Assembly: GCF_900143015.1 (NCBI RefSeq)
Contig: NZ_FSRT01000003.1
Coordinates: 186,001 to 250,000, forward strand
DNA: 64,000 bases
Direction of reading: 5' to 3'
Source: Fibrobacter sp. UWB11
GTDB lineage: Bacteria; Fibrobacterota; Fibrobacteria; Fibrobacterales; Fibrobacteraceae
Part shown: piece after piece, positions 8,428 through 15,412 of the stretch
Layout: each line of letters begins with the position of its first letter
Numbering within the stretch: position 1 is the first letter of the stretch
Made by a program: the position numbers and the translations under genes
Notes under the pieces: generated by a model
Databases searched by the model: none
What the model was told of the DNA's origin: nothing
The model's input: the letters and a program-made list of their open reading frames with translations, nothing else

Positions 8428-9321
<894 letters not shown>

Positions 9322-9394
9322 TTAGAATTTGAGTCAACCCTTTTCAATATTTTTTTAACCCATTCCGTCACAATTTTTCTTTTTTTTGCATCGC

Positions 9395-9411
9395 TATAAA
9401 AACTTTTTATA
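9395..9411. promoter_or_regulatory. LysR-type operator-like inverted repeat between nifH copy 1 and nifB
   Basis: TATAA-AAACTTT-TTATA, extended outward by GC on both sides, has the same 5-7-5 spacing as TATAG-N7-CTATA with one change per arm. It lies 57 bases upstream of a TTGAC block that is shared with the other nifH copy at the same distance. It could serve both divergent genes. Confidence 0.5.
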
Positions 9412-9675
9412 GCCCCATTCAGCGGAAATCTATTGCGCATCGCAAAAAAATATTTTTTTTGATTTTTGCCCCTTGTTTCATATTGTCTTTCGCTATACCG
9501 CTTTTTAAATTTTGCCCGAACTTCTTCGACAGAGAAGTAAAAGAATTAATCACATTACGGAACGTTAGGCAACCGTTCATCTTTTTCAACAAACTAAATC
9601 GGCATTTACCGCTAGTTTAGCGCAAGGCGTTTACGTCTTGTGTTTACACGAATCCTTTGCCTTTGTGAGGTTTTT
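9412..9675. other. nifB upstream region
   Basis: AT-rich, with no further ORF. A small hairpin CGCTA-GTT-TAGCG lies at 9610-9622. I see no sigma-54 -24/-12 pair and no NifA-type site. Confidence 0.4.
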
Positions 9676-10548
9676 ATGGCAATCGATCAAGAAAACGTTT
9701 TTAGAGAGCACCCTTGTTTTGGTGCGTGTAAGAATCGTAAAGGGCGTATTCATTTGCCCGTCGCTCCGGGCTGCAATATCGAATGCCGTTTTTGCGACCG
9801 CCGCATCAACGAAGACGCACAAATCCCGGGAAATACAAGTAAAGTCATTAAGCCCGAAGAAGCATGCGGATACATTCGCAAAGCATTAGAATTCGTGCCG
9901 GAGCTTACCACGGTGGGTATTGCAGGGCCTGGCGATACGCTTGCAACGCCGTTTGCACTGGATACGTTCCGCCTCGTCAAAAAGGAATTTCCGCAGTTGA
10001 TTCGTTGCATGAGCACAAATGGGCTTTTGCTGAACGACAAAGCAGACGAAGTCATTGATGTGGGTATCGACACGCTGACGGTTACGGTGAATGCCGTTGA
10101 CCCAGAAATCGAGGCTATGATCAACGCGAGAATTTTCTACCACGGCAAAACTTATACGGGCGTTGAAGCAGCTGAAATTCTGATTCACAACCAGCTCGAA
10201 GGGATCCGCAAAGTTGCAAAGAGCGGCACGCTTATCAAGGTAAATACAGTTCTTTGCCCAGGAATCAACGACAAGCATATCGAAGATGTCGCTGCAACTG
10301 TCCGCGAAGCCGGTGCGATTATATATAACATCATCCCGTTGATTCCGCAGAACGGTTTCAAAGACATTCCGGCACCAACTCCGAAGGGACTCGCAATTGC
10401 ACAGGAACAGGCAGGCGTATTTATCAACGTGTTCAAGCATTGTGCGCATTGCCGCGCTGATGCCGTTGGCGTTCCCGGCGTTTACGATGTTGGTGCACAA
10501 ATCTACATGGACCGCATCCGTGTAAAGGAGACATTCTCTCATGGCTAA
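9676..10548 (+). CDS. nifB: NifB-like radical SAM cofactor maturase
   Basis: About 290 residues from the ATG at 9676 (MAIDQENVF) after GTGAGG; an in-frame GTG at 9640 is less likely. The radical SAM motif is CNIECRFC (Cys33, 37, 40). The N-terminal EHPCFGAC and C-terminal HCAHCRADAVG (Cys256, 259) match NifB regions that hold the K-clusters used to build the carbide-centred [8Fe-9S-C] NifB-co. It lacks a fused NifX domain; that domain is the next gene, overlapping by 8 bases. Odd: canonical NifB has a Cys shortly after the radical SAM motif (NRK-Y/F-DC); here the text reads CDRRINEDA with no Cys. Product likely feeds the HDK enzyme at 22-26 kb. Confidence 0.85.
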   Translation: MAIDQENVFREHPCFGACKNRKGRIHLPVAPGCNIECRFCDRRINEDAQIPGNTSKVIKPEEACGYIRKALEFVPELTTVGIAGPGDTLATPFALDTFRLVKKEFPQLIRCMSTNGLLLNDKADEVIDVGIDTLTVTVNAVDPEIEAMINARIFYHGKTYTGVEAAEILIHNQLEGIRKVAKSGTLIKVNTVLCPGINDKHIEDVAATVREAGAIIYNIIPLIPQNGFKDIPAPTPKGLAIAQEQAGVFINVFKHCAHCRADAVGVPGVYDVGAQIYMDRIRVKETFSHG

Positions 10549-10957
10549 ATACAAAGTAGCAGTTGCCACAAATGATGGCATAAACGTCAATGTCCATTTT
10601 GGACATGCAGCAGCTTTTGACATTTATGAAGTCGATGACGTGAGCGGAAAATTTGAAAAGATTGAAGTTCGCATAAAGCCAGAACATTGCGATGGTTCGT
10701 GCGGAGACGGAGCATGTGGAAGGCAAGAGGTTGAACATTCGTCTATGTTTGCGGCCGCAAAAAATCTTGCTGATTTAGATTACGTTCTTTGCCAACAGCT
10801 TGGCCCGCAGGCAATTCAATCATTGGCTCGCTTTAACGTGCGTGCTTTTGATATTGCGCTCCCCATCGATGAAGCAATCGCCAAGATAAATTTATACCGA
10901 AAGAAATTAGCTGAACGACTTTCAAGAATCAAGGGTTTACAAAATAAGACTTTATAA
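10541..10957 (+). CDS. NifX/NifB-C-terminal-domain protein
   Basis: A 138-residue protein of the dinitrogenase iron-molybdenum cofactor domain family (NifX, NafY, VnfX). N-terminus KVAVATNDGINVNVHFGHAAAFDIYEV is typical, with the conserved GH pair. A Cys cluster at residues 50-59 (HCDGSCGDGACG) is an insertion that might hold an Fe-S cluster. It overlaps nifB by 8 bases, so the two are translationally coupled. Likely role: carrier or insertion factor for the NifB product. The last 30 residues are basic and helical. Confidence 0.85.
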   Translation: MAKYKVAVATNDGINVNVHFGHAAAFDIYEVDDVSGKFEKIEVRIKPEHCDGSCGDGACGRQEVEHSSMFAAAKNLADLDYVLCQQLGPQAIQSLARFNVRAFDIALPIDEAIAKINLYRKKLAERLSRIKGLQNKTL

Positions 10958-10983: not shown

Positions 10984-11012
10984 TTGACGGAAGAAAAGTT
11001 TGGTTTTATATT
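10984..11012 (+). promoter_or_regulatory. Promoter of the methyltransferase leader
   Basis: TTGACG, 17 bases, TATATT. Expected start near 11019, about 22 bases before the leader ORF at 11041. Confidence 0.6.
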
Positions 11013-11040
11013 TATTCCTACCAATTCAATAGGAAATTAA

Positions 11041-11088
11041 ATGAGTATTCAATTTGCAAGATTTTGTTGTTCTAGCGACCGATGTTGA
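11041..11088 (+). CDS. Cys-rich leader peptide MSIQFARFCCSSDRC
   Basis: A 15-codon ORF with AGGA seven to ten bases upstream. Cys codons are at positions 9, 10 and 15, the last just before the stop. ACGGGCG (11088-11094), starting at the stop codon, is perfectly complementary to CGCCCGT (11121-11127), the 5' arm of the terminator that follows. A ribosome paused at the CysCys pair leaves ACGGGCG free to open the terminator. A ribosome that reaches the stop covers it and the terminator forms. That is the geometry of ribosome-mediated attenuation sensing Cys-tRNA. The role is inferred; the ORF, terminator and complementarity are read directly. Confidence 0.75.
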   Translation: MSIQFARFCCSSDRC

Positions 11089-11120
11089 CGGGCGCTTATT
11101 GCGGTATTGAATGATTTTCT

Positions 11121-11155
11121 CGCCCGTGTAAGGATATCCTGCACGGGCTTTTTTT
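11121..11155 (+). terminator. Attenuator terminator before the methyltransferase
   Basis: GCCCGTG (11122-11128) and CACGGGC (11142-11148) form the stem, with an inner AGG/CCT helix, then seven T. It lies between the leader peptide and the gene it would control. Confidence 0.8.
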
Positions 11156-11201
11156 ACAGGCTTTTTTGCCTGCAACTCAAAAAATTTTAGGAAATAAAAC
11201 A

Positions 11202-12044
11202 ATGGAAAGTTTAACAGCAAAATTGTGCGCATTTGCTCGTGCTTGGCATTCGTCGCAGCCAGACCACACCGTTTTCAATGATTTCTTGGCCCTGGACTTT
11301 ATGGGTCGAGAAGAATACGATAAAGTTTCGAACTTTATCTTAAAACGTTTTTCGCAAGAATCGGAAAATTCGGTTGAGTATTTCAATCGAAAATATTTCC
11401 TCCCAATCGTACTTTCGCGAAGCCGCTTTGCAGAAGATCGCGTGAAGCTTTTGGCCCAATCGGGGCCGATTCAATATGTGATTTGCGGAGCAGGTGTAGA
11501 CACGTTCTCATTTCGCAACAAAAATCCAAATGTCGAAGTTTTCGAATTAGATTTGCTACCAACGCAAAGCTACAAGAAAAAACGCATTCGTGAGCTTCAG
11601 TGGAATGTTTCGAAGAACGTCCATTTTGTTGCGGTTGATTTTAGCAAGGATCGCATTGTAGATAAGCTTGTTGAAAACGGTTTTGACCGCAAAAAGCCAA
11701 CTGTCGTCAGCATATTGGGCGTCTCGTATTATCTGCCGCTGTCCGTATTTGCCGAGACAATTCGTCAGTTTTCGGAAATTGCAGCAACAGGAATTTCAAT
11801 TATATTCGACTACCTGCAAAAAGAAGCGTTCTCTACTTCCGTTTTGCAATTGAAAAAAATCGTTGCCGATTGCGGTGAAACAATGGCAGAAGGCTATCGT
11901 GATCGTGAAGTTTTTGAAGTACTTGAACGCAATGGTTTTAAGGTCGATGAATTTCTTGGTGAAAGCGCATTACAACAACGTTACTTTCTGACAGGAGACC
12001 TTAAAGCATTTGATTCCGTGCGCCTCATCGCAGCAGTGCGTTGA
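11202..12044 (+). CDS. Class I SAM-dependent methyltransferase, LCMT-like (PF04072 type)
   Basis: A 280-residue protein starting at 11202 after TAGGAAAT. The SAM-binding part is YVICGAGVDTFSFR (about residues 98-111), followed by an acidic strand (VEVFELDLLPTQSYKK), as in leucine-carboxyl-methyltransferase-like small-molecule methyltransferases. Substrate unknown. It is controlled by a Cys-rich leader and lies immediately before the transsulfuration pair. In Bacillus subtilis a methyltransferase gene, yrrT, precedes mtnN-mccA-mccB, so a role in methionine/SAM recycling to cysteine is plausible but inferred. Confidence 0.75.
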   Translation: MESLTAKLCAFARAWHSSQPDHTVFNDFLALDFMGREEYDKVSNFILKRFSQESENSVEYFNRKYFLPIVLSRSRFAEDRVKLLAQSGPIQYVICGAGVDTFSFRNKNPNVEVFELDLLPTQSYKKKRIRELQWNVSKNVHFVAVDFSKDRIVDKLVENGFDRKKPTVVSILGVSYYLPLSVFAETIRQFSEIAATGISIIFDYLQKEAFSTSVLQLKKIVADCGETMAEGYRDREVFEVLERNGFKVDEFLGESALQQRYFLTGDLKAFDSVRLIAAVR

Positions 12045-12045
12045 T

Positions 12046-12124
12046 TATAGAAAAACTTTATCACTAGCTTTAGAAAAATAGTATAAACAAATCTCTTGCC
12101 AAATCGAAAGGCTTTATCTAAATT
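12046..12124 (+). promoter_or_regulatory. Candidate LysR-type operator and promoter of the transsulfuration operon
   Basis: TATAG-AAAAACT-TTATC at 12046-12062 matches the 17-bp motif at eight of ten positions. A candidate promoter follows: TTGCCA (12096-12101), 17 bases, TAAATT (12119-12124). The operator-to--35 gap is 33 bases, one helical turn more than the 22 seen at 26191 and 29588. Confidence 0.45.
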
Positions 12125-12153
12125 AAAACCTACAAAAGAAACAGGATACAAAA

Positions 12154-12216
12154 ATGAATTTTTATTTCAATAGCTTGAATTTTGCTTGCTGTTGTCGATG
12201 TCGAACGGGCATCTAG
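12154..12216 (+). CDS. Cys-rich leader peptide MNFYFNSLNFACCCRCRTGI
   Basis: A 20-codon ORF with AGGA seven bases upstream of its ATG. Four of five consecutive codons are Cys (residues 12, 13, 14, 16). CGAACGGG (12202-12209), right behind the Cys codons, pairs at seven of eight positions with CCCGCTCG (12244-12251), the 5' arm of the terminator that follows. Pausing at the first Cys codon should leave CGAACGGG exposed; finishing at the stop (12214) should cover it. This is the same layout as the 11041 leader, with unrelated sequence, which argues for real function: relief of termination when charged Cys-tRNA is scarce. Confidence 0.85.
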   Translation: MNFYFNSLNFACCCRCRTGI

Positions 12217-12243
12217 TTTTTAGGCTATACTTTTAAACAGGTT

Positions 12244-12279
12244 CCCGCTCGGTTTTATGTTCCGTAGCGGGATTTTTTT
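12244..12279 (+). terminator. Attenuator terminator before the transsulfuration pair
   Basis: CCCGCT-CGG pairs with CCG-T-AGCGGG (12244-12271), then seven T. It lies 67 bases before the downstream start codon. Confidence 0.85.
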
Positions 12280-12345
12280 ATTCAAAAAATTTCAAAAAAA
12301 ACAAAGGCGCTATCACTTAGTAGCGTCACAGGAGATTATTATCTT

Positions 12346-13503
12346 ATGTCAAATTTCAACTATATCGAAACGAAACTCATTCACGGCGGCATTGATGGCG
12401 ACAAAACAACAGGAGCTGTCAACGTTCCCATTTACCAGACTTCAACCTACAAGCAGTACGGCCTCGGAGAAAATACGGGCTGGGAATATTCCCGCACAGG
12501 AAACCCGACGCGCGCTGCGTTGGAAGCTTTAATTGCGGAACTCGAAGGCGGTGTTGCCGGCTTTGCTTTTGCGAGCGGCATGGCAGCAACATCAACTGTT
12601 CTTTCACTTTTCAAGCAAGGCGACCGCATCATTATTTCGAGCAACGTCTATGGCGGAACCTTCCGCGTTCTTGACAAAGTATTCAAGAATCTCGGCATTA
12701 CGTACTCCATTGAAGACACCACCGATTTAAAAACGCTCGAAACCAAGATTACGTCCGATGTGAAGGCATTTTTCGTTGAAAGCCCAGCCAACCCGCTTTT
12801 GACCGTGACGGACTTGGCAGGCGTTGCTGCAATTGCAAAGAAACATAATATCTTGACCATTGTCGATAATACATTCATGACTCCTTATTTGCAGCGTCCG
12901 TTGGAACTCGGCGCCGACATTGTGGTACATTCCGCAACCAAGTATTTGGGCGGCCATAGCGATGTGGTGGCTGGCCTTGCAGTGACCAACAACAAGGAAA
13001 TTGCAGAACGTCTCGCATTCAATCAGAATGCAGTAGGCGCAGTACTTGGACCTTTCGATTCTTTCCTCTTGATTCGCGGCATCAAAACTCTTGGTGTTCG
13101 CTTGGATCGTCATACCGAAAATGCTGAAAGTATCGCCCGCTATCTCGAAAAGCACGAAGCCGTAAAGCACGTTTATTATCCGGGACTCCCGACAGCTCAA
13201 GGTTATGAAATCAACAAAAAGCAGGCCAAAAACGGCGGCGCCATGATTTCATTCGAACTCCGCGAAAACTATGACATCAAGAAATTCTTCAAGGCCCTCA
13301 AACTAGTGTCACTTGCCGAAAGTTTGGGCGGTGTCGAAAGCCTCGTATGCCATCCGGCCACAATGACCCACGCATCCATTCCAAAGGAAATCCGCGAAAA
13401 AGTCGGTATTACCGATGGACTTATCCGCTTGTCTGTGGGCATCGAAAAAGTGGATGACATCATTTCGGACGTAAACGCAGCTATTGAAGCAGCAAAGGCA
13501 TAA
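12346..13503 (+). CDS. Cystathionine gamma-lyase/gamma-synthase-type PLP enzyme (MccB-like)
   Basis: A 385-residue Cys/Met-metabolism PLP enzyme. Motifs: YSRTGNPTR, FASGMAA, and HSATKYLGGHSD with the PLP lysine. Length and sequence fit cystathionine gamma-lyase or gamma-synthase, not MetY. The next gene is a CysK/CBS-fold enzyme, and the pair resembles B. subtilis mccB/mccA, which turn homocysteine into cysteine by reverse transsulfuration. The operon starts with a leader peptide of four near-consecutive Cys codons and a terminator, so expression should rise when cysteine is low, which suits a cysteine-producing direction. MetB function cannot be excluded by sequence alone. Confidence 0.85.
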   Translation: MSNFNYIETKLIHGGIDGDKTTGAVNVPIYQTSTYKQYGLGENTGWEYSRTGNPTRAALEALIAELEGGVAGFAFASGMAATSTVLSLFKQGDRIIISSNVYGGTFRVLDKVFKNLGITYSIEDTTDLKTLETKITSDVKAFFVESPANPLLTVTDLAGVAAIAKKHNILTIVDNTFMTPYLQRPLELGADIVVHSATKYLGGHSDVVAGLAVTNNKEIAERLAFNQNAVGAVLGPFDSFLLIRGIKTLGVRLDRHTENAESIARYLEKHEAVKHVYYPGLPTAQGYEINKKQAKNGGAMISFELRENYDIKKFFKALKLVSLAESLGGVESLVCHPATMTHASIPKEIREKVGITDGLIRLSVGIEKVDDIISDVNAAIEAAKA

Positions 13504-13645: not shown

Positions 13646-14557
13646 ATGAAATACTATGAATCCATGAAATCGTTAATCGGAAACACACCGCTTGTTAAGC
13701 TTACTCATGTTGGAGTTCCAGAAGGTGTAAACTTGTTTGTGAAGCTTGAGTTGTGGAATCCTTCGGGTAGCGTGAAAGACCGTACCGGTTATTATATGGT
13801 CGAAGAAGCTTTCGAACAAGGAACGCTCAAGCCAGGTGGAACGATTATCGAAGCTACTGCAGGAAACACCGGTCTCGGAATCGCCTTTGCCGCCCTCAAC
13901 CGCGACGTGCGCGTAATCTTTGTGGTACCAACAAAGTTCTCGCAAGAAAAGCAGACGCTTTTGCGTGCGCTAGGCGCAGAACTCATCAACACCCCGCGTG
14001 AAGAAGGCATGCTCGGAGCCGAAAAGAAAGCCGAAGAATTACTCAAGCAAATCCCGGATTCCATTTCGCTCAGACAATTCCATAACATGGCAAATCCTCG
14101 CGCCCATTACGAAACGACCGGCCCCGAGATTTACAAGGACCTTGACGGACATATCGATTATATAGTCGCTGGCGCAGGGAGCGGCGGCACATATTCGGGA
14201 ATCCTCAAGTACCTCAAGGAACGTAATCCCAATATTCAAGGCGTGTTGGCAGACCCCGTAGGCTCCACAATGGGCGGCGGCGAACATGGCGATTATAACA
14301 TCGAAGGAATCGGAAACGATTTTATCGCCGACACTATGGACATGTCCCTCGTCGATAGAGTTGTAAAAATCAATGATGACGACGCTTTTGGCGGTGCACG
14401 CGACCTCGCCAAAAAAGAAGGCATCATTGCAGGATCTTCATCGGGAGCGGCTTTTGCGGCTGCCAAAAAATTGATTGCTTCGGGCGCACGCGGAAACATC
14501 GTCTTTGTAGCACCGGACCGTGGCGACCGCTACTTTAGCAAGGGATTATATAAATAG
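13646..14557 (+). CDS. CysK/CBS-fold enzyme, probable O-acetylserine-dependent cystathionine beta-synthase (MccA-like)
   Basis: A 303-residue fold-type II PLP enzyme. It has LWNPSGSVKDRTG with the PLP lysine, EATAGNTGLG, AGAGSGGTYSG and PDRGDRYFS. EATAGNTG with GGGEHGDYNIEGIG resembles cystathionine beta-synthase/MccA proteins, where housekeeping CysK has PTSGNTG. It probably condenses homocysteine with O-acetylserine (or serine) to cystathionine, which the preceding enzyme cleaves to cysteine. There is no C-terminal CBS regulatory domain. Same operon as the preceding gene. Confidence 0.8.
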   Translation: MKYYESMKSLIGNTPLVKLTHVGVPEGVNLFVKLELWNPSGSVKDRTGYYMVEEAFEQGTLKPGGTIIEATAGNTGLGIAFAALNRDVRVIFVVPTKFSQEKQTLLRALGAELINTPREEGMLGAEKKAEELLKQIPDSISLRQFHNMANPRAHYETTGPEIYKDLDGHIDYIVAGAGSGGTYSGILKYLKERNPNIQGVLADPVGSTMGGGEHGDYNIEGIGNDFIADTMDMSLVDRVVKINDDDAFGGARDLAKKEGIIAGSSSGAAFAAAKKLIASGARGNIVFVAPDRGDRYFSKGLYK

Positions 14558-14647: not shown

Positions 14648-15412
14648 TTAATTTACTTTTGTCCAAAACAAAACCTTGCGTTTTACAAATTCAAATAGTT
14701 CCATAATCGCAAGAACAACAATGCCCGTCCAAAGGATTCCGGCAACCATGTTGGGGTAATCGGAATAGTCTGCATAAAATTGCACGAAATGCCCTAGCCC
14801 TGTATTTTCGCCAAAGAGTTCAGCAACAGTGAGCATAATGAACGAAAGCCCCATGCCTACAGAAAGCCCCGAAAAAATGGAAGGAAGGCTTGCGACAAAG
14901 GCAATTCTCCACAAGTATTCAAAGCGACCAATGCCGATGATGGCGGCGTTCCGCTTGTATTTTTCAGGAATATCGGCAGCACCGGCTGCGGTATTCAAGT
15001 AAATGGGCCAAAAAGCGGCAATAAAAATGATGAATGTGGAAGAAAGATAGAATGTCGGCAAAATGGCGATTGCGTAAGGAATATAGACGTTAGGCGGAAT
15101 GGGTGCCGCAAATCGGGAAATAGGCTTTAACATATTGCCCACCCAAGGAACGGATCCAGAAACAATTCCAACGGAAATCCCGACAACAGCCGCGGCAAAA
15201 TAAGCGGGAACAAGCTTCAGGAGCGACGCCCACGCACTCCGCAAAAGTTCTTCACGAGAATTGAAGAGGGCTTCCGCAATCGCTTTGGGCGATGGGAACA
15301 AATATTGGCTACTCCATTCCGGGCCGCTACTGATAAACGTCCAAATTCCAAGCAAAAGAAGAAGGAATAAAAATCCTGAAAATTTAGATAGGTATTTTAC
15401 AAAAATTCTCAT
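14648..15412 (-). CDS. SsuC/TauC-type ABC transporter permease
   Basis: A 254-residue inner-membrane permease with about six hydrophobic segments. It has the binding-protein-dependent transport signature near residues 165-190 (KYKRNAAIIGIGRFEYLWRI). Last gene of the porin-SsuA-SsuB-SsuC operon, overlapping ssuB by four bases. No ssuD or tauD oxygenase is nearby, and the organism looks anaerobic, so the cargo may be an organosulfur compound processed without oxygen, for example a thioether feeding the nitrogenase-like reductase. Confidence 0.85.
   Translation of the reverse strand: MRIFVKYLSKFSGFLFLLLLLGIWTFISSGPEWSSQYLFPSPKAIAEALFNSREELLRSAWASLLKLVPAYFAAAVVGISVGIVSGSVPWVGNMLKPISRFAAPIPPNVYIPYAIAILPTFYLSSTFIIFIAAFWPIYLNTAAGAADIPEKYKRNAAIIGIGRFEYLWRIAFVASLPSIFSGLSVGMGLSFIMLTVAELFGENTGLGHFVQFYADYSDYPNMVAGILWTGIVVLAIMELFEFVKRKVLFWTKVN

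Follow-up and report, generated by a model that had tools for sequence, protein, structure and literature searches.

The window, by which we mean the whole 64-kb stretch of DNA analyzed here, belongs to a 3.76-Mb genome of the genus Fibrobacter and carries three neighboring genes that look, from their sequences, like mccB-mccA of reverse transsulfuration and an accompanying methyltransferase (Table 1). The nearest relatives of the mccB-like product are models and structures of cystathionine gamma-synthase and of bifunctional cystathionine gamma-lyase/homocysteine desulfhydrase, with no NCBIfam equivalog above its cut-off among those shown. Just 5' of the sulfur genes (8428-10957) are nifH, a short nifB-like radical SAM gene, and a nifX/NifB-C-like gene. 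Operons of comparable content, yrrT-mtnN-mccAB in Bacillus and ubiG-mccBA in Clostridium, convert methionine to cysteine and are under the control of CymR and a Cys T-box (PMC3519770, PMC2940859); from likeness to these we infer the same direction, methionine to cysteine, for the Fibrobacter pathway. An earlier reading made from the sequence alone (the sequence-only reading) had called the genes a transsulfuration operon; homology upholds that name, to which we add the direction, the reverse (mccB-mccA-like) being the best fit. Reverse transsulfuration would make cysteine the end product, as an attenuator built on Cys codons demands.

Table 1. Features of the two putative cysteine attenuators and of the genes behind them (window coordinates).
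Feature	Position	Strand	Details
Promoter-like site, second element	10984..11012	+	TTGACG-17-TATATT; read from sequence
Dyad, second element	11015..11035	.	perfect, TTCCTA-N9-TAGGAA; only exact match in genome
Second leader ORF, MSIQFARFCCSSDRC	11041..11088	+	stop TGA
Segment 2, second element (GACGGGCGCT)	11087..11096	+	pairs with 11074-11081 (1:2) or 11121-11127 (2:3)
Terminator, second element	11122..11155	+	GCCCGTG...CACGGGC-T7
SAM-dependent methyltransferase gene, behind second element	11202..12044	+	TIGR00027/PF04072
Promoter-like site, first element	12096..12124	+	TTGCCA-17-TAAATT; 9/12 consensus; weak alone, with 1.5 sites this good expected by shuffling
Dyad, first element	12129..12145	.	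CCTA-N9-CAGG, degenerate in window (relatives TTTCCTA-N9-TAGGAAA); over presumed transcript start and leader RBS
Shine-Dalgarno AGGA of leader ORF	12143..12146	+	7 nt 5' of ATG
Leader peptide ORF, MNFYFNSLNFACCCRCRTGI	12154..12216	+	ATG 12154, 20 codons, stop TAG 12214-12216
Segment 1 (GATGTC)	12197..12202	+	1:2 protector hairpin with 12208-12213 (GGCATC)
Antiterminator hairpin (2:3)	12201..12252	+	predicted -17.3 kcal/mol, ribosome stalled at first Cys codon
Segment 2 (CGAACGGGCATC)	12202..12213	+	pairing and ribosome geometry
Intrinsic terminator (3:4)	12243..12279	+	hairpin 12243-12272, -15.9 kcal/mol; T7 12273-12279
mccB-like gene, first regulated gene	12346..13503	+	cystathionine gamma-lyase/gamma-synthase family enzyme, by homology
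mccA/cysK-like gene, second gene	13646..14557	+	PLP enzyme, cystathionine beta-synthase or cysteine synthase type; best match PDB 5xw3

Ahead of the mccB-like gene, the ribosome-binding site and 20-codon leader are as the sequence-only reading had described them, with four Cys codons in five: codons 12 to 16 read TGC TGT TGT CGA TGT, giving a tandem run of Cys codons 12 to 14 (12187-12195) and a further one, codon 16, at 12199-12201. None of 5,000 dinucleotide shuffles of the intergenic region produced a small ORF of this kind, and a Shine-Dalgarno-like sequence precedes the leader in most relatives. The strong terminator that had been proposed is confirmed, its hairpin reading TCCCGCTCGG-N9-CCG-T-AGCGGGA, as is the pairing of CGAACGGG (12202-12209) with the terminator's 5' arm, the complementarity to CCCGCTCG covering seven of eight positions; this pairing extends into the predicted antiterminator, a long interrupted hairpin. 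As a whole, the 136-nt region folds with z = -3.7, and 0 of 200 dinucleotide shuffles were equally stable. No match to a T-box, SAM, or other known cis-regulatory family fell on the attenuators when the window was scanned against Rfam. The sole Rfam riboswitch match in the window is a cobalamin riboswitch (RF00174, 43791-44000 on the minus strand, 78.9 bits). Small GC hairpins without a T-run stand between the attenuator and the gene's RBS on the mccB side (12306-12327) and at the second element (11156-11175), and such hairpins are kept in many relatives with changing sequence (GGCGC...GCGCC; GGGC...GCCC).

The conservation of this arrangement was assessed in 80 Fibrobacter genomes, the genus set for the protein search with the mccB-like gene, in which 50 orthologous loci, the window counted in, had at least 88% identity and usable upstream sequence. 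Of these 50, 49 retain a Cys-rich leader together with the terminator and the RNA segments that compete for pairing; whether relatives with the operon also have the leader was the point on which the sequence-only reading had, beforehand, asked to be judged. The sole orthologue without a leader (G065:C34:1-2853) has 198 nt of contig ahead of the gene, with an unrelated terminator directly 5' of mccB. Remoter mccB homologues in the genus (L052-L056, 47 to 64% identity) have no Cys leader ahead of them, so the element is tied to the close orthologue rather than to the whole mccB family. Two loci (L050 and L051), misplaced by MAFFT in alignment A1, were placed by anchors.

Further leaders were sought by scanning the window and with a profile (R1) built from 43 elements and run against 168 Fibrobacterota genomes. 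The profile matched 53 of these, all in Fibrobacter or one sister genus (G141), two marginal matches being included; since the orthologues thus come from one genus and one sister genus, their conservation is not fully independent evidence. Profile matches at G072:C19, G069:C5, G107:C322, and G008:C17 were dropped, as they resembled plain terminators or chance. The exact segment 2 pattern occurs in 25 records, of which 24 are Fibrobacter and one is a "Clostridiales" MAG contig. That contig (LVAV01000030.1) carries a leader and Fibrobacter-like mccB-mccA genes, with mccB 93% and mccA 88% identical, and is probably mis-binned. In the window, 29 Cys-rich small ORFs were found, and two of them, the first leader and the ORF at 11041-11088, have a terminator within 110 nt behind.

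These comparisons bear on a plainer account, in which the hairpin does no more than end transcription of the upstream methyltransferase gene and the Cys-rich ORF is incidental. The terminator lies about 200 nt 3' of the methyltransferase stop codon and could serve that gene too, yet the leader is conserved in frame, an ORF comparable to it is absent from the shuffles described above, the leader-terminator unit stands ahead of mccB also in genomes that lack the methyltransferase gene or carry it at another place, and a similar unit precedes the methyltransferase gene itself. We therefore regard this account as exceedingly improbable.

Sixty-five distinct elements were used for the geometry, folding, and pairing counts. 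Their leaders have 14 to 23 codons (for example, MNFYFNSLNFACCCRCRTGI, MTQKMMNKCCFCWGRCRTGD, MMLIYSSSCCWCRCRAGD, MNSPAFSKKFCNVCCVCRC, and MFYSKKIQCCMRGRC), and almost every non-Cys residue drifts among relatives, while a tandem Cys pair is present in 65/65. The Cys codons are TGT in 238 cases and TGC in 25 (of 263), and the use of both indicates that the amino acid is kept rather than the codon. The leader tail reads CRCRAGD-stop or, in several clades, CRC-stop (TGTTGA), with the RNA segment retained; because that segment survives the change, the peptide tail appears to serve the RNA. Recurrent CCxC and CRC motifs among the leaders might suggest that the peptide is itself functional, for instance as a Cys-rich metal- or thiol-binding peptide, but nearly everything except the Cys codons drifts, the Cys residues are variably spaced, and the conserved tail occupies the same stretch as RNA segments 1 and 2; in several clades it gives way to a stop codon without loss of the RNA. 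A function of the peptide is accordingly something to which we attach hardly any likelihood.

The RNA pairings are mutually exclusive, and the pairing of segment 2 with segment 3 follows three registers: CGRRCGGG:CCCGCTCG (41 elements), GAACGAGC:GCTCGTTC or near it (5), and ACGGGCG:CGCCCGT (19). Each element's own segment 2/3 pair is more stable than permuted pairs (0/20,000 permutations), by a statistic that ignores kinship. A segment 2 of type II forms a good pairing with arms of its own type alone (mean -13.7, versus -9.8 for arms of type I and -7.5 for those of type III), one of type III is best matched to its own arms, and one of type I is permissive. Within a register, the helices persist without, or nearly without, exception, mostly invariant, and changes on both sides are rare, so classical covariation is thin; the register shifts are stronger evidence. 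A 1:2 hairpin with a stem of 4 bp or more is predicted in 63/65, with pairs that differ between clades and with compensatory changes in type III (AGCG/CGCT, AACG/CGTT, and ATGCGC/GCGCAT). The terminator hairpins range from -13.3 to -21.2 kcal/mol, all with a T-run, though in the nif-linked elements this is only TTTCTT.

The ribosome geometry fits these pairings. On the assumption, from standard footprints, of 12 nt between the A-site codon and the leading edge, the tandem Cys codons lie far enough upstream (at least 15 nt in all 65 elements) to spare segment 2, which is left free by a stall at either tandem Cys codon in 65/65. Part of segment 1 is masked by such a stall in 62/65. The last Cys codon of the window leader abuts segment 2 and belongs to segment 1, and a ribosome stalled there could not free segment 2. 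The sequence-only reading had supposed that a ribosome finishing at the stop codon covers segment 2, and this geometry fits in 64 of the 65 elements; in the exception (L017), the stop comes earlier and most of segment 2 is still masked. That segment 2 is freed only from the tandem Cys codons goes beyond the earlier reading, as do the 1:2 hairpin and an upstream twin of the element. Predicted folds ahead of a stalled ribosome, with the terminator's 3' arm not yet made, give the antiterminator in 65/65, and those after a stop-codon ribosome or its release give the terminator in 65/65. For the full-length stalled RNA, the terminator is the minimum-energy fold in 56/65, which means that antitermination must win kinetically. 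Antitermination in the trp attenuator is likewise kinetic.

Cysteine might instead act on translation, with stalling in the leader opening the mccB RBS, as with the leaderless polycysteine small ORFs of mycobacteria, a translational type of leader known from Canestrari et al. 2020 as cited in PMC13236596. The small hairpin at 12306-12327, just 5' of the mccB RBS, is compatible with such a scheme. It is nevertheless very unlikely here, given a strong intrinsic terminator, a T-run, and a competing antiterminator in all 65 elements, and an mccB RBS about 50 nt past the terminator.

Taken with their conservation and the fitting geometry, the kept Cys codons and the complementary segments 2 and 3 agree with the earlier suggestion that all parts of a trp-like attenuator are present, with Cys as the predicted signal; the element is very probably a trp-type, ribosome-mediated transcription attenuator responding to charged tRNA-Cys. 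We infer the following course of events, from translation of the leader to the response to cysteine. When cysteine is plentiful, the leader would be read to its stop codon, the ribosome would mask segment 2, and the terminator would form 5' of mccB. When cysteine is scarce, the ribosome would stall when the tandem Cys codons (12187-12192) occupy its A site. This stall would open the 1:2 hairpin, and the released segment 2 could form the antiterminator with segment 3. The antiterminator would arise while the terminator's 3' arm is still to be transcribed and would so permit read-through into mccB-mccA, whose products, with the activities that their homology suggests, would make cysteine from homocysteine.

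The twin element, a second Cys attenuator at 11041-11155 on the plus strand (profile match spanning 11062-11155), is absent from the sequence-only reading. Its leader starts 161 nt 5' of the methyltransferase gene, which it would govern by the same design. In relatives, the methyltransferase gene, or a homologue of 43 to 48% identity, stands behind its own Cys leader, 3' of mccB-mccA, or beside an ABC transporter permease gene, of which the window has one of that type at 14648-15412; the same putative control is found on mccB and on the methyltransferase gene, with a placement that varies between genomes. In most of L105-L113, the ATG of the methyltransferase leader comes directly behind a nifX-like gene's stop codon, which apparently puts the attenuator within a nif operon. 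It is a tentative thought, which we hold to be possible but doubtful, that two adjacent, independent Cys attenuators split a single methionine-to-cysteine regulon, and that in several species, where the second follows a nifX-like gene and has no obvious promoter of its own, cysteine gates the methyltransferase within a nitrogen-fixation operon.

A further layer of control may lie at the promoter. A CCTA-N9-YAGG dyad is found in 39 of 49 mccB loci, against 4 of 19,600 shuffles; a genome-wide search allowing two mismatches was uninformative (125 matches versus 337 in a reversed control). TTTCCTA-N9-TAGGAAA also occurs upstream in L024 and L037, and a similar dyad precedes the 47%-identical homologues L053, L054, and L056. 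The dyad is a possible repressor operator for an Rrf2-type regulator, and the genome encodes one Rrf2-family protein only (140 aa; G000:C2:246924-247313); control resembling that by CymR, which is of the same family, would be a guess. A repressor acting on the dyad might even be the main cysteine control, with attenuation minor or vestigial, and both the dyad's retention over the presumed start site and the presence of that one regulator would suit this. We think it unlikely, as it leaves the leader, the RNA pairings, and their joint conservation unexplained, and the dyad is apparently missing at methyltransferase leaders directly behind the nifX-like gene. Repression and attenuation can, moreover, coexist.

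The proposed attenuator has its closest models in the trp and his leaders, the Yanofsky class. Like them, it has a short, Shine-Dalgarno-led leader ORF with tandem codons for the end product, alternative 1:2, 2:3, and 3:4 pairings, an intrinsic terminator, and a stop codon placed so that a releasing ribosome masks segment 2; it differs in its cysteine signal, in a segment 1 that partly overlaps the Cys codons, and in its host, a member of the Fibrobacterota. The uORFC-8-2 motif before cysS in Rhodobacterales likewise combines an upstream ORF of tandem Cys codons with an intrinsic terminator, and ribosome-mediated attenuation has been proposed for it (PMC8632094), but it governs cysteinyl-tRNA synthetase in alphaproteobacteria and is dominated by TGC, whereas TGT prevails in Fibrobacter. 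In Actinobacteria, runs of Cys codons occur in leaders ahead of cys operons or cbs without conserved terminators (PMC1262725). Unlike the mycobacterial leaderless ORFs, those of Fibrobacter are Shine-Dalgarno led and followed by an intrinsic terminator. The clostridial ubiG-mccBA Cys T-box (PMC2940859) controls comparable genes (methyltransferase, mccB, and mccA) through the same signal, tRNA-Cys charging, and by premature termination, but there the RNA binds tRNA directly, while in Fibrobacter a ribosome would read a peptide leader; the Fibrobacter methyltransferase, of the TIGR00027/LCM family, also differs from the clostridial set.

A literature search of incomplete coverage found no published attenuation in Fibrobacter. 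The type of switch is known, and its use in Fibrobacterota and as two side-by-side copies appears to be new. The phylum, which includes major rumen cellulose degraders, would apparently join the range of bacteria with ribosome-read cysteine attenuators. The 65 natural variants, with their shifting registers and stop positions, offer a test bed for attenuator geometry, and the second attenuator would link the methyltransferase to cysteine metabolism. The gene set that clostridia place under a Cys T-box would here be under a peptide leader, with signal and target the same and the sensor different.
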